Assembly (NCBI GenBank): GCA_947450355.1
Contig: CANFVB010000006.1
Coordinates: 1 to 35,475, forward strand
Reading direction: 5' to 3'
DNA from: Bacteroidota bacterium
GTDB lineage: Bacteria; Bacteroidota; Bacteroidia; Flavobacteriales; Flavobacteriaceae
DNA: 35,475 bases
The first letter of the stretch is position 1; the number at the start of each line of letters is the position of its first letter. Position numbers and translations under genes: made by a program. Under the pieces are notes generated by a model. That model did not search any database. It saw nothing but the letters and a program-made list of their open reading frames with translations, and had not been told where the DNA came from. Of the stretch, positions 7,451 to 28,894 are shown piece by piece.

Positions 7451-8188
7451 ATGGAAAAAATAATATCGTATCCAATATCTATAATTAGCTTACTCTTGTT
7501 TTTGCTAACAATAGTTATTTTTCATCCCATTCAGTGGATTTGTTTCAATTTATTTGGATACCAAGCCCATAAAAAAAGTGTCGATTATCTCAATTTTATA
7601 CTTTTGCGAATTGGACACTTATTAGGAACTCGCTATAAAATTGAAAATAGAGAATCCATTCCCGAAGGAGTTCCAATAATTTTTGTGGCAAATCATCAGA
7701 GTTTATACGACATCATCGGAATAATATGGTTTTTGAGAAAATTCCATCCTAAATTTGTAAGTAAGAAAGAATTGGGCAAAGGAATTCCGAGTATTTCCTA
7801 TAATTTAAATCACGGAGGTTCTGTATTAATTGACAGAAATGATCCAAAACAGGCTATTTCAGTTATCAAAGAATTATCACAATATATTGAAAATACAAAT
7901 CGTTCAGCGGTAATTTTCCCTGAAGGAACACGTTCTAAAACTGGAAAACCGAAAGAATTTGCGAAAAGCGGCTTAAAAATTCTATGTAAATACGCTCCTT
8001 CTGCATTTGTTGTTCCAATAACGATTAACAATTCATGGAAATTTGTTAAATTTGGCTTTTTGCCGTATGGTCTTGGAAATCGAATTACCTTTACCGTTCA
8101 TAATGCAATATCTGTAAAGGAATCCGACATTGAGGATTTATCAAATAAAGTAGAAGAAATTATAATTAAAAGCATAAAACATAAATAA
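7451..8188 (+). CDS. plsC: 1-acyl-sn-glycerol-3-phosphate acyltransferase
   Basis: NHQSLYD (NHxxxxD) and FPEGTRSKTGK motifs. Confidence 0.9.
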   Translation: MEKIISYPISIISLLLFLLTIVIFHPIQWICFNLFGYQAHKKSVDYLNFILLRIGHLLGTRYKIENRESIPEGVPIIFVANHQSLYDIIGIIWFLRKFHPKFVSKKELGKGIPSISYNLNHGGSVLIDRNDPKQAISVIKELSQYIENTNRSAVIFPEGTRSKTGKPKEFAKSGLKILCKYAPSAFVVPITINNSWKFVKFGFLPYGLGNRITFTVHNAISVKESDIEDLSNKVEEIIIKSIKHK

Positions 8189-9940: not shown

Positions 9941-9963
9941 TTTCCAATATTATTTTCATTAGA

Positions 9964-10039
9964 AGCTATTCCTGCTATTCGCTATATCTCTTGTGGCGAA
10001 CGCCGCCACAAGAGGATGCCGCTGCTATCAGGGCTAAAA
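9964..10039 (+). repeat. REP-like hairpin repeat, copy 1
   Basis: agctattcctgctattcgctatat-[ctcttgtggcg aacgc cgccacaagag]-gatgccgctgctatcagggctaaaa; 11-bp perfect stem; outer flanks shared with copies 2-4. Confidence 0.7.
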
Positions 10040-10121
10040 ATTACAACCATTTGTGTACACAATAATTTTAGAAATAATTTTGTAGATTTGACAAAATTTA
10101 ATCCTGAAATCCCTCTCAAAA

Positions 10122-10547: not shown

Positions 10548-10659
10548 AATAATCTTGCAGATTAAACGCCAAGTTACGCAGTGTTTTGGAGATTTATTTC
10601 AAAATATAAATAAAAGAAATCGTTATGAATTTCAAATTTATTGTTGAGTTTAACGCTTG

Positions 10660-10780
10660 GCCTGTAACAGCAGTTGCTGATAAAAGTGGACTGAATTTTC
10701 TCTGCCAAAATAAAAATTCTTGCGAAACGTAAACGTGAACATACCACAAAATTCGCAATTGCGAGAATCTGCTGTTGGCA
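10660..10780 (-). repeat. cassette-boundary imperfect palindrome (downstream of lipocalin-like gene)
   Basis: Minus strand TGCCAACAGCAG (10769-10780) ... CTGCTGTTACAGGC (10660-10673), with internal stem ATTCTCGCAATTGCGAA/TTCGCAAGAAT. Confidence 0.6.
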
Positions 10781-10796: not shown

Positions 10797-11228
10797 TTAA
10801 TTAATTCGAGTTAAAACTTCTACGTCAGTAATTCCCGAGTTAATGAATTTCTCTTTTAGTGTTGTATTTGTAAGTTCCAATATTTCACCATTAAGAGTTG
10901 GCTGATTTGGATAAGATACTGTTACAGAATTATTGTTTTTTGTCCAAGTTCCTGTACTAATTGTTTCTTGACAATTAGGATTGTTATATTCGTGACTTTT
11001 AAGAATTCCACCAGCAAGTATTTCTATGTAATCTTTAGTACAACCTGCTGTGTGTTGGTAATCTGTAAGTATTTCTTGATTATTTGTTATTGTTCCAACT
11101 TTTGTGTATTGCCATTTTCCTTCTATTGAAACAGGTACAGTTTCTGGAGTTGAATCACTTTTACTACAAGAATATAATCCGAAAAAGATAACAGGAATTA
11201 AATGAATAATTTTTTTAAAGTTTGTCAT
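10797..11228 (-). CDS. small lipoprotein, lipocalin-like domain
   Basis: Lipobox LYSCSKS; IEGKWQYTKV...GTWTKNNNSVTV pattern typical of Bacteroidota lipocalin-like lipoproteins. Confidence 0.7.
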   Translation of the reverse strand: MTNFKKIIHLIPVIFFGLYSCSKSDSTPETVPVSIEGKWQYTKVGTITNNQEILTDYQHTAGCTKDYIEILAGGILKSHEYNNPNCQETISTGTWTKNNNSVTVSYPNQPTLNGEILELTNTTLKEKFINSGITDVEVLTRIN

Positions 11229-11331: not shown

Positions 11332-11472
11332 CCGGCTAACTTTCCGCGGCTTGGCATTGTGGCGGACTTTCAGAACCAAGCCTTTACAAATATAAACAAA
11401 ACTTTTGATTAATGACCTTTCCAATTTCTGATAAATCCCATGCCTCGCCATTTCTTGAAACTGCTGTTGGCA
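11332..11472 (-). repeat. cassette-boundary imperfect palindrome (downstream of S41 peptidase gene)
   Basis: Minus strand TGCCAACAGCAG (11461-11472) ... GTTAGCCGG (11332-11340), internal GGCTTGG/CCAAGCC stem. Confidence 0.6.
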
Positions 11473-11480
11473 GATTGTTT

Positions 11481-12989
11481 TTATTTTTTTAGCAATAGTT
11501 CCATTGTAAAATTCAACTGCGTGTCAATGTTTATTAGAAAGTCGTCAAAAGTTTGAGTGATTTCATAATTAGGTATAATTCCACTGCCATACTTTTGATT
11601 TTCTTTTTTAGGAACATCTTGTTCTAAATTCACAACAGAAAATGTTATCACTATTTTTGATTTAGGTAATTTATAACTCAATGGTGAATGTCCGTTGTGT
11701 CCATAATAACCACCTAAAGTTTCTTCTCCAATTGTTGTTGTATTTTCATTTCCTGAAACCATTGCGGCAAACAAACTTCCTGCTGATGCAACCTTTGGAC
11801 TTATTAGCAGGTAAATATTTCCATTGAATGCGTTTTGATTTGGTTTTCTAATTTTGTGGTCATCCGAATTTTCATCCTGAAAAAATTTGCCGTTTTGTTC
11901 TTTAGGGAAAATTTTTTGAAATTCTCTATTATATTTTCCAACTATTAATGGTCTTATAAATTTAGGTATTCCAATATTATAATATTTCATTAAAGGTATT
12001 TTTTTAAAACTAATCCAAGCTTGCTTATTTTCTTGAAAAATTCTATTCGTCAAATAAGAATAAGTTACTAAATCATTTGGGTCATTTCCGCCACCATTAT
12101 TTCGAATATCAACAATTAAGTTTTTAATTCCTTGAGTTTTGACATTTAAGAAAATACTATCTAAAAAATATCGATACGTTTTATGTTCAATTGTCTTTTC
12201 ATCACCTATATCAAAAGTGTGTATCGTCAAAATTCCTGTTGATGGATTTAATTGTTTGTAATTATATTTTTGATTTTCCTTTAAATCTGCATAATAATAT
12301 TGATCAACAGACATTGTGTGCATTTTTCTGAAGTTTTCGTAATATGGTTTGTTGCCAACACTTTGGATTTGTTTAGTTTCTAATTGTTTAGAATTTGGAT
12401 ATACAAAACTTATCACAAAAGTTTTTGTAAGACCAAAATGAAGTCTGTAATATTTTGAAAAGTCTTTCATTAAACCAATTCTTTTACCTGTCAGATTATT
12501 TCCGTCAGTCGAATAGTATTTATAAAGTTCTGGAATTATTTTATTAATTGAAATATTATTTATTGTTACAATTTCAGCTCCTAAAGGAATTTCTTTATCA
12601 CTAATATTTATAAGCCATTTACCTTCAATCCATTTGATTGGATATGGAAAATAACCGAATGTTTCATCTTTCAAATTTTCAGCGTATTTTTTGGGTAATG
12701 ACACTTCATTATGACAGCTTCCTTCAAAGTCAGAAATAGTAAATATTAAATTATAAAATTCTCGATAAGATGTAATTTTCTCAATTTGCTGATTTGCCCA
12801 TTTATTAATGCTATCAATTTGTTTTTCTGTGCGGTATTTGTTAACTCCAGAATTGGCTTTGGATGATATGCTTTTAAAGACTTCAAAATCTTGTTTCATT
12901 TTATTTTTGGAAAACGGTTCATCAATAGATTGTCCGTTTGCAAAAAATGAAATAAATAAAATCAAAAATATTGTCGTAAATCTCGTCAT
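11481..12989 (-). CDS. S41-family peptidase, secreted
   Basis: N-terminal signal peptide; NLIVDIRNNGGGND and LLISPKVASAGSLFAAMV...IGEETLGGYYG blocks of S41 (tail-specific protease-like) peptidases. Confidence 0.85.
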   Translation of the reverse strand: MTRFTTIFLILFISFFANGQSIDEPFSKNKMKQDFEVFKSISSKANSGVNKYRTEKQIDSINKWANQQIEKITSYREFYNLIFTISDFEGSCHNEVSLPKKYAENLKDETFGYFPYPIKWIEGKWLINISDKEIPLGAEIVTINNISINKIIPELYKYYSTDGNNLTGKRIGLMKDFSKYYRLHFGLTKTFVISFVYPNSKQLETKQIQSVGNKPYYENFRKMHTMSVDQYYYADLKENQKYNYKQLNPSTGILTIHTFDIGDEKTIEHKTYRYFLDSIFLNVKTQGIKNLIVDIRNNGGGNDPNDLVTYSYLTNRIFQENKQAWISFKKIPLMKYYNIGIPKFIRPLIVGKYNREFQKIFPKEQNGKFFQDENSDDHKIRKPNQNAFNGNIYLLISPKVASAGSLFAAMVSGNENTTTIGEETLGGYYGHNGHSPLSYKLPKSKIVITFSVVNLEQDVPKKENQKYGSGIIPNYEITQTFDDFLINIDTQLNFTMELLLKK

Positions 12990-13006
12990 TGTTAGGGTTT
13001 TCTAAA

Positions 13007-13727
13007 ATATCTGCCAACTTATATATAGTAATGACACGGTAGCTATTATACACCTAGATTTGGTTAGATTGTAGTGATAAAAGGCAGACTTTATTTATTT
13101 TCAAATATAGTTATTACTTATTACAAATCACCAAATGTGCTTTTTATTTGCATCCACACAATCTAATGATTACAAACTTTTATGGTTCATATCCGCAAAG
13201 TAAGGAGACATTTGCGAAGCATTTTAGAGAAACACTTTTCAGAGCAGAGTTATAGTTAAAAGCATCAATTTTCGAGTTAAAAATATCAAATTGTATTTTT
13301 CAAAAACCATCGGCTTCCTGTTTTAGTGCGACAACGGGGTTCCGAAGCGGGTCAACGGGGTCTTGAACGTGGTAAACGGGGTTCCGAACCCCATAATTGG
13401 GGTTGTACAACGTGGTAAACGGGGTCTTGAACGTGGTAAACGGGGTTAAGAACCCCATAATTCGGGTTATACAACGTGGTAAATGGGGTCTTGAATTTAA
13501 TAAACACAAGAAACAGACCAGAATTTTGTATAAACTCGAGATTGCTTACATTTATTAGGATTAGTCATTAGATTGTGTATATGCAAATAAAAAGCCCATT
13601 TGATGATTTGTAATTAAGTAATACCTATATTTGAGAATATAGAAAGTGGAACAATCCTTCGCTAATCTATACAAAATTGGGTGTGTTTATGAAGGTTTGT
13701 AGCGCCTATATAATAGTTGGCAGATAT
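13007..13727. repeat. ~720-bp inverted-repeat element between divergent genes
   Basis: Perfect 13-bp terminal inverted repeat ATATCTGCCAACT (13007-13019) / AGTTGGCAGATAT (13715-13727), plus a ~72-bp, roughly 85-90% identical internal inverted repeat 13102-13173 / 13563-13633. Confidence 0.8.
13333..13494. repeat. nested tandem repeat (21-bp and 43-bp subunits, 64-bp super-period)
   Basis: ACGGGGTCTTGAACGTGGTAA (21) alternating with ACGGGGTTccGAACCCCATAATTgGGGTTgTACAACGTGGTAA (43); two full and partial further units. Confidence 0.85.
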
Positions 13728-13752
13728 AGTAAAAAAAACGAAACGTAAATCA

Positions 13753-14226
13753 ATGAAATATAGATTATTAATTACACTTTTTTTAATTTCAGTAAGTTTG
13801 ATTCTACTTAATAGATTTTCTGATTTAAGTATAAATAATCCATTAATTTATTGGCTTCTGATTTTTGTTTTATATTCAACATTTTTTCTTCTACTAAATG
13901 GAATATTAAAAGAAAAATACAGAAAAGCAACAAAAATATTAATAATTATAATTGGCGTTATTTGTATTGGTTTATATCGTATTACATACTTGAGTTTTTG
14001 GGGAACACAAACAATTGAATACGTAAATATTTCTAACGAAAATAAGTCAATTGAATTTCAAATGAGAGATTTAGGTGGATTAGGATTCAAAACTCGAATA
14101 ATAGAAAATACAAAAATTCTTCCAAACATAAATTGGATAAAAGAAATAGACACAAGCAAAATAAACAAAACCGAATGGAAGAAAGTTGAGATTGAACGGA
14201 ATGAAATGAATATTAAATTCCCATAA
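13753..14226 (+). CDS. hypothetical membrane protein
   Basis: ATG at 13753 (MKYRLLITLFLISVSLILL...); three hydrophobic segments; no family recognised. Confidence 0.65.
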   Translation: MKYRLLITLFLISVSLILLNRFSDLSINNPLIYWLLIFVLYSTFFLLLNGILKEKYRKATKILIIIIGVICIGLYRITYLSFWGTQTIEYVNISNENKSIEFQMRDLGGLGFKTRIIENTKILPNINWIKEIDTSKINKTEWKKVEIERNEMNIKFP

Positions 14227-14245
14227 TAATAAATAAAACTACATC

Positions 14246-14373
14246 TGCCAACAGCAGTTACACAAGATGCAAGGATTTAGTGGAATTGCCGTTTCACATT
14301 GAACTTTTTACTTAAATAGAAAATATGCAGTCACGAAGCCTTGCACCTCTTGTAGCTGCGGAACGTTACTGGC
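14246..14373 (+). repeat. cassette-boundary imperfect palindrome (downstream of membrane-protein gene)
   Basis: TGCCAACAGCAGTTACACAAGATGCAAGG ... CCTTGCACCTCTTGTAGCTGCGGAACGTTACTGGC, imperfect long inverted repeat. Confidence 0.7.
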
Positions 14374-17406: not shown

Positions 17407-17454
17407 CCGCAAAGTGTTCTTTCCTCAACGAGAACATTTTGCGGATTTTATTTT
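17407..17454 (+). terminator. aspS intrinsic terminator
   Basis: aaatccgcaaagtgttct...agaacattttgcggattttatttttt. Confidence 0.75.
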
Positions 17455-17510
17455 TTATAAAAACTTCTCTTTCTTTTGGAGCGAATTGCCCTTTACTATT
17501 TGCAATTGCA

Positions 17511-17572
17511 ATTCCCGCTTTCCATTGCAATCCACGTCCAAAAGCGTGGGATTTCCATTGCAATCGGGGCTA
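17511..17572 (+). repeat. REP-like hairpin repeat, copy 2
   Basis: attcccgctttccattgcaat-ccacg tccaaaag cgtgg-gatttccattgcaatcggggcta. Confidence 0.7.
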
Positions 17573-17732
17573 CTGGATTAGTCATTTTCTTGTTTTGAAT
17601 TTTTGGCTTTTAAAAAAAGATGCCGACTGAAAATTCTGAAATAGGTTTGCAAAAAACCCCAAAAACCAAACTTTAAAAACATTTCCAAGTTTTGAACAAA
17701 TTAGAATAGATAATAATTGTAAGTTTGTAATT

Positions 17733-20185: not shown

Positions 20186-20329
20186 AGAATAGATGTTTTC
20201 CCAGAGTCATTTGCCCTGCAATAAATATTAAAATTGGCTTATTAAATTGCATCTAAAGAAAATCCCCGCTCCCGATCCTTTCGAGTACTTCCCTATTAAA
20301 ACCCAATTATGAAAATATAAGCGTTCATA

Positions 20330-20397
20330 TTTAGCCTCCGATAGTAGCGGCATCCCACGCTTTTGGGCGTGGATACAGCGAATAGCGGGTGGAATAG
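20330..20397 (-). repeat. REP-like hairpin repeat, copy 3 (inverted relative to copy 2)
   Basis: Reverse complement CTATTCCACCCGCTATTCGCTGTAT-CCACGC CCAAAA GCGTGG-GATGCCGCTACTATCGGAGGCTAAA. Confidence 0.75.
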
Positions 20398-20526
20398 TGA
20401 AGTGAAATAAAATCGTGTGCTCCTAAAGAAAAAAAACATCCTAATTTTGAAATTCACTAACTTTCGTGGGAAATGAATTTTGGTAATGTTACTCCGTCAG
20501 TTTTATATAAGAAGAATTGTTGCGCT

Positions 20527-28230: not shown

Positions 28231-28244
28231 ATTAGAAATTGAGG

Positions 28245-28263
28245 TGGTCACAGATTGTGACCA
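28245..28263. repeat. palindrome, ORF6N-associated, copy a
   Basis: tggtcaca-gat-tgtgacca. Confidence 0.75.
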
Positions 28264-28316
28264 GTTAATAAATTTTCTGGTAAAAATCGGGGTAAGTTAC
28301 AATAAATCAATAAGTT

Positions 28317-28343
28317 GAGGTGGTCACAATTTGTGACCACCTC
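28317..28343. repeat. palindrome, ORF6N-associated, copy b
   Basis: gaggtggtcacaa-t-ttgtgaccacctc, perfect 13-bp arms. Confidence 0.85.
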
Positions 28344-28369
28344 AAGAAAGAAAAAAATAATTACAATAT

Positions 28370-28894
28370 ATGAGCCAAGAATTAATTATTACAGAAGAAT
28401 TTATAATGAGCAAAATCTTGCTTATAAGAGATCAAAAGGTAATGATAGATTCAGATTTGGCTACGCTTTATGGGGTTACAACCAAGCGTTTAAATGAGCA
28501 AGTTAAACGAAATATAAAACGCTTTCCAAGTAATTTTATGTTTCAGTTGACCGAAATTGAAAAAACATATGTGGTCGCAAATTGCGACCACCTCAAGAAA
28601 TTAAAATTTTCGTCATCTTTGCCTTATGTTTTTACAGAACACGGAACAATGATGTTAGGAAATGTATTAAGCTCGGATAGAGCAATTGAATTTAGTATTA
28701 AAATTGTTGAGGCATTTATTAAAATGAGAGAATTTCTAACCAATAATGTAAGTGTAAAACTTGAAATTGAGGAAATTAAAAAGAAGTTGATGAATCACGA
28801 CAAGAACATTGAATTGGTTTTCAATTACTTAGATGAAATGATGGAAAAGCAAGATAATAAAGTGGAAAGAATCAAAATTGGTTACAAAAAATAA
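28370..28894 (+). CDS. ORF6N domain-containing protein (phage-type DNA-binding domain)
   Basis: ILLIRDQKVMIDSDLATLYGVTTKRLNEQVKRNIKRFPSNFMFQLT...LPYVFTEHGTMMLGNVLSSDRAIEFSIKIVEAFIKMRE; the start may be internal. Confidence 0.9.
   Translation: MSQELIITEEFIMSKILLIRDQKVMIDSDLATLYGVTTKRLNEQVKRNIKRFPSNFMFQLTEIEKTYVVANCDHLKKLKFSSSLPYVFTEHGTMMLGNVLSSDRAIEFSIKIVEAFIKMREFLTNNVSVKLEIEEIKKKLMNHDKNIELVFNYLDEMMEKQDNKVERIKIGYKK
28571..28591. repeat. palindrome inside ORF6N coding sequence, copy c
   Basis: gtggtcgcaa-a-ttgcgaccac, followed by cctcaagaaa exactly as after copy b. Confidence 0.85.

Follow-up and report, generated by a model that had tools for sequence, protein, structure and literature searches.

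A head-to-head pair of probable promoter-bearing attI sites and a candidate integron-like cassette system in Bacteroidota

In the window, the 35,475-nucleotide stretch of flavobacterial DNA analysed here, an inverted repeat of about 720 bp lies between two divergent genes, which raises the question of whether it is a mobile element, a local duplication or a boundary of the gene arrays on both sides. The original prediction left two alternatives, a non-autonomous (MITE-like) element and two opposed repeats bounding head-to-head cassettes upstream. The second stood and the first did not; more precisely, the element most probably consists of two attI sites with promoters, arranged head to head and separated by approximately 390 bp of unrelated repeats (probability about 0.86). 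As judged from sequence, the best reading of the locus is a bidirectional cassette platform without an integrase of its own, which would be either a relic or served in trans by an integrase encoded on contig C128 of the same genome.

Ends, arms and spacer of the inverted repeat

As originally described, the terminus ATATCTGCCAACT (13007-13019) recurs without mismatch in inverted orientation as AGTTGGCAGATAT (13715-13727). Such a 13-bp match is by itself not unusual for DNA this AT-rich: at a spacing of 400-1000 nt, 8 inverted pairs of 13-mers were observed, whereas a Markov control gave 2.5 on average and 10 at most. The significance of the ends derives from homology, since each arm singly is a genome repeat reading toward a gene start. 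The inner arms, predicted to be roughly 85-90% identical, pair in inverted orientation over 53 nt at 91% (13120-13172 / 13562-13614), and a longer pairing covers 86 nt at 88% (13088-13172 / 13562-13647). No open reading frame of 70 aa or more is present within the element, in agreement with the prediction. Single arms, which it had proposed to look for, occur at approximately ten other places in the genome, most of them oriented toward a gene whose start lies a short distance downstream. Blastn of the arm against plasmid and phage DNA gave no match, and an Rfam search of the element matched no known RNA family. The features of the element are as follows.

13011..13123, minus strand: attI-L, reading leftward from a decayed intI stop through promoter and hairpins to AGTT, followed by GGCAG; crossover GTT at 13016-13018 (E 4e-15 with R1, the attI covariance model, whose training set includes both window copies; intI-linked attI alignment; cassette-end test)
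13102..13109, minus strand: TATATTTG, Bacteroidota-type -7 element, putative Pc of the left array (conserved TAnnTTTG)
13121..13151, minus strand: integrase 3'-end remnant, about 10 codons, KSPFDDL-like and degenerate (match to the intact C128 integrase gene, 3' end)
13173..13561, no strand: spacer between the attI modules, separate repeat DNA unrelated to the arms, attI or intI
13191-13253, within the spacer: dispersed short repeat
13329-13505, within the spacer: GGGGTTC minisatellite with a period of about 21 bp
13583..13613, plus strand: integrase 3'-end remnant (match to the intact C128 integrase gene, 3' end)
13612..13723, plus strand: attI-R, reading rightward; crossover GTT at 13716-13718 (E 1.4e-12 with R1, same training set; intI-linked attI alignment; cassette-end test)
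13626..13633, plus strand: TATATTTG, putative Pc of the right array (conserved TAnnTTTG)

The spacer gave no detectable homology to attI or intI, and its matches in the genome fall at other places than those of the arms.

Integrase remnants, promoters and attI folds

Each arm contains the decayed end of an integrase gene (the last ~10 codons, KSPFDDL and stop), a putative TAnnTTTG promoter and a hairpin-rich attI of about 100 bp ending in AGTT. On contig C128, an uninterrupted 347-aa tyrosine recombinase gene terminates in the arm sequence (YTHVSTKSIQQIKSPFDDL and a stop codon), which continues into the DNA downstream, where the stop is followed by TAnnTTTG, ~90 bp of hairpins, TATANACNAGTT and then a gene. 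This integrase (L018:2060-3103) is the only intact member of the family found in the window's genome, and it is followed by an attI and at least one attC (L018:3101-4206). A second copy on contig C11 (L033) carries a TAG at codon 3, and its match ends at aa 268. An integrase gene adjoins attI at C128 and at the homologous loci of relatives, and none does at the window locus. The TAnnTTTG motif, which we take from its consensus to be a Bacteroidota-type promoter element, sits just after the intI stop in most aligned copies.

The attI half-sites covary, with a score of 0.66-0.75 against 0.225 for shuffled alignments (0/500). Within each attI, neighbouring members of a series of four short words, A-B-C-D, are complementary; their sequences vary between loci and agree within a locus. 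The pairings A.B plus C.D and B.C plus A.D are mutually exclusive, and both covary (alignment A3, columns 40-101); pairs were counted on named structures, as RNAalifold alone recovered one attI hairpin. Such a two-fold alternation may represent a leader-RNA (attenuator-like) switch or a DNA fold. In the window copies the hairpins are partly decayed. The inner tail-plus-Pc parts of the two arms are each other's nearest copies in the genome (86%), whereas the outer attI halves more closely resemble other loci (C55 at 69% for the right half, C143 at 74% for the left), and the window copies therefore appear mosaic.

XerA/XerC-like recombinases have, to our knowledge, no known role in cassette capture. 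The solved structures closest to the integrase by sequence belong to this group (4a8e and 5hxy); compared with it, the integrase here adds an N-terminal domain of ~70 aa and adjoins attI and cassette arrays. In alignments, ~20 aa occupy the region where VchIntIA has 62, and a gap of ~40 aa appears relative to IntI1. The integron-integrase profile TIGR02249 matches only residues 2-176 and 237-315, below cut-off. On these alignments and the profile match, on which its likeness to IntI rests, the integrase is XerA/IntI-like and lacks the IntI-specific insertion (I2 helix). The I2 helix is regarded as the innovation that enabled the use of folded single-stranded attC, and the insertion is reported to be necessary for cassette capture in IntI1 and absent from other proteins (PMC7790495); hence, integron chemistry cannot be assumed for this enzyme. 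Because the IntI-specific additional domain is missing, the system is classed as an integron-like variant and not as a standard member.

Cassettes and attC sites on both sides

The arrays flanking the element contain the following features.

10648..10780, minus strand: attC of cassette L2, R' GTTAAAC (R2 E 1.3e-4)
10797..11228, minus strand: gene of cassette L2, lipocalin-like protein (Pfam PF13648)
11334..11472, minus strand: attC of cassette L1 (R2 E 3.9e-9)
11340..13018, minus strand: cassette L1, S41-family peptidase gene at 11481-12989 (Pfam PF03572; same cassette and 5' boundary in G152)
13716..14364, plus strand: cassette R1, gene at 13753-14226 for a 157-aa protein of unknown family
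14246..14371, plus strand: attC of cassette R1, R'' TGCCAAC, R' GTTACTG (R2 E 2.5e-18)

The attC model R2 was built from 19 curated sites of relatives, and the window was kept out of its training; in the 35 kb it finds three attC and no more, each following one cassette gene in the expected orientation. The 19 sites, which have R'' and R' boxes, form a common covarying, imperfect stem that is 89% paired, with a score of 0.70 against 0.205 after shuffling (0/500). Beside the R boxes, the unpaired spacer measures 1 nt on one side and 5 nt on the other, and an unpaired A is conserved.

In addition, the cassette 5' ends are complementary to their own R'' boxes. In cassette L1, the 5' end GTTGGCAGAT and the R'' ATCTGCCAAC (11466-11475) are reverse complements at 10/10 positions, and the same 5' end GTTGGCAGAT in cassette R1 pairs exactly with R'' ATCTGCCAAC at 14243-14252 (10/10). 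The 5' end of cassette L2, GTTAGCCGG, is unpaired with its own R''. The outer TTGGCAGATAT of the element thus belongs to the adjoining cassettes, each of which has its exact reverse complement at its own 3' end. In the terminal repeat originally described, the outer 11 bp form the start of the two cassettes and the inner bases are attI; the agreement of the two termini follows from the R box that the cassettes share. The proposed link to the cassette boundaries through TGCCAAC is borne out, and the cassette R1 attC has TGCCAAC as its R''.

Among 46 attI sites, 21 are followed downstream by a perfect 9-nt reverse complement of the cassette 5' end, against 1.5% in a control with cassette ends exchanged between loci; both window sites are exact. 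The S41 cassette of G152, another species, agrees with that of the window at 28/32 positions from GTT onward and at only 17/60 upstream. Furthermore, the sister genome G014 is 98% identical to the window in the flank with the HIT gene, starting at 8180 and ending at the R' box CGTTAAAC (10648-10655), after which a different attC follows. This break fits cassette exchange at the R' box, although the draft contigs may be misjoined at attC repeats. In G014 both window flanks lie on separate contigs in rearranged order, with another attC at the left flank; near TlpA the attC model finds no attC in this genome. The empty sites that the original prediction had suggested looking for were not forthcoming, as the nearest relatives gave no clean one.

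A C128-type tyrosine recombinase would join the attC of a circular cassette to the attI crossover between AG and TT, and the inserted gene would land directly behind Pc, transcribed away from the element. Each attI would then start its own small array, with the S41 peptidase followed by the lipocalin leftward and the 157-aa protein rightward. Elsewhere in the window's genome, four attC lie within 2.1 kb as a run of short cassettes (G000:C163:15-2145).

Distribution, rival explanations and known systems

The window's genome (2.3 Mb, 226 contigs, 84% complete) contains at least 10 attI and one intact integrase. The attI model finds 3-18 sites per genome in 15/16 genomes of the same genus, where the order of stop, promoter, hairpins and AGTT follows intI orthologs of 70-86% identity; an identical layout occurs in more distant Bacteroidota. 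The complete genome G010 carries five or more strong solo attI and lacks a close ortholog of the integrase. In the relative G007 (L059), at least seven cassettes lie behind the integrase, and the 5' ends of several are visibly complementary to their own R''. Integrase tails of 60-80 codons remain at L067-L069, and G017 (L271, G017:C32:17000-24000) contains four tandem attI ~1 kb apart, which are preceded by decayed intI tails and each have a gene after them. A protein search placed the integrase and attI on two complete Chryseobacterium plasmids (L269 and L270; NZ_CP041688.1 and NZ_CP094530.1); at L269 attC sites were detected behind the integrase, with Crp/Fnr-family and other genes downstream. 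No other head-to-head attI pair occurs among the matches listed, and the arrangement therefore seems unusual.

A MITE or another non-autonomous inverted-repeat transposon would account for the inverted ends, the absence of an internal ORF and the repetition of the arms. However, no target-site duplication was found at either flank, no whole copy of the 720 bp occurs elsewhere in the window's genome, where all other copies are single arms lying before genes, the ends are mostly cassette DNA and common to cassettes, the arms match integrase 3'-end sequence, and the middle is unrelated repeat DNA. This explanation, the MITE-like half of the original prediction, was rejected as very improbable. 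A simple inverted duplication of a promoter region, unconnected with recombination, agrees with the mutual nearness of the inner tail-plus-Pc parts and is improbable to a slightly lesser degree: the outer halves resemble other loci more closely, and cassette-end complementarity and the attC evidence speak against it. A plain local duplication with no arm copies elsewhere had been named as the finding that would count against the prediction; the module is instead dispersed across the genus, and in its simple form the duplication is refuted. A duplication followed by an exchange of attI halves may still account for the two arms.

The remaining rival shares the attI anatomy of the preferred reading and differs from it only on present activity. 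The arms would be leftovers of two decayed integrons without intI, retained for the expression that Pc still gives the first genes, with no recombinase acting now, to which we assign somewhat less than an even chance. Only ~10 degenerate integrase codons remain in the window arms, intermediate decay is visible elsewhere in the 60-80-codon tails and the C11 intI with its early TAG, and G010 retains its solo attI with no close intI ortholog; together, the partly decayed window hairpins and the unpaired 5' end of L2 indicate that the locus may be a relic. On the other side, the cassette ends are still exact 10/10 complements, the array beside the HIT gene differs from that of the sister despite a 98% identical flank, and the genome encodes one intact integrase of this family. 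The platform reading accommodates either state. On a wider scale, we lean slightly toward a separate integron class in Bacteroidota, in which an XerA-like, I2-less recombinase would capture attC-like cassettes and one integrase, or none, would serve many scattered promoter-bearing attI, some back to back for two-way expression.

IntI integrons, both class 1 and the sedentary chromosomal type of Vibrio, have in common with this system a tyrosine recombinase, an attI, a promoter and directional promoterless cassettes; attC bearing R''/R' boxes, a covarying stem, a conserved unpaired A and an unpaired spacer of unequal length on the two sides (1 vs 5 nt); a crossover between G and TT; and cassettes that start with the complement of their own R''. 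They differ in that the integrase here lacks the I2 insertion, intI reads toward attI, many hairpin-rich attI are scattered over each genome, and R' is often GTTNNNN instead of strict GTTRRRY. In the chromosomal integrons of Treponema, intI is likewise transcribed toward attI, in the cassette direction, but one attI per integron is described and the integrases are identified as IntI (PMC3607928). CALIN and In0, in IntegronFinder terms, resemble the window locus as cassette arrays without an adjoining integrase gene (PMC9024848), whereas here attI and promoter are retained, doubled and placed back to back.

No published description of the system was found in the open-access literature. The IntegronFinder 2.0 survey reported one complete integron in Bacteroidetes proper, in Salinibacter ruber (PMC9024848), and the program requires the IntI-specific domain (PMC9668308). 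Searches based on that domain would not count integrases of the present type, and the seeming near-absence of complete integrons from Bacteroidota may have this cause. If true, a widespread I2-less cassette system with covarying attC hairpins would represent either an independent solution or an intermediate that was missing. With many attI docks in each genome, the one-platform view of integrons would change as well.

Other repeats are also present in the window. A dispersed 70-100-bp repeat at ~9949-10052 has more than 20 copies in G014, and intergenic repeats at 17450-17618 and 20275-20452 are 79-86% identical to G014 contigs. The palindrome GGTCACAATTTGTGACCACC occurs three times in 28236-28606, upstream of and inside the gene at 28370, and may mark regulator sites.
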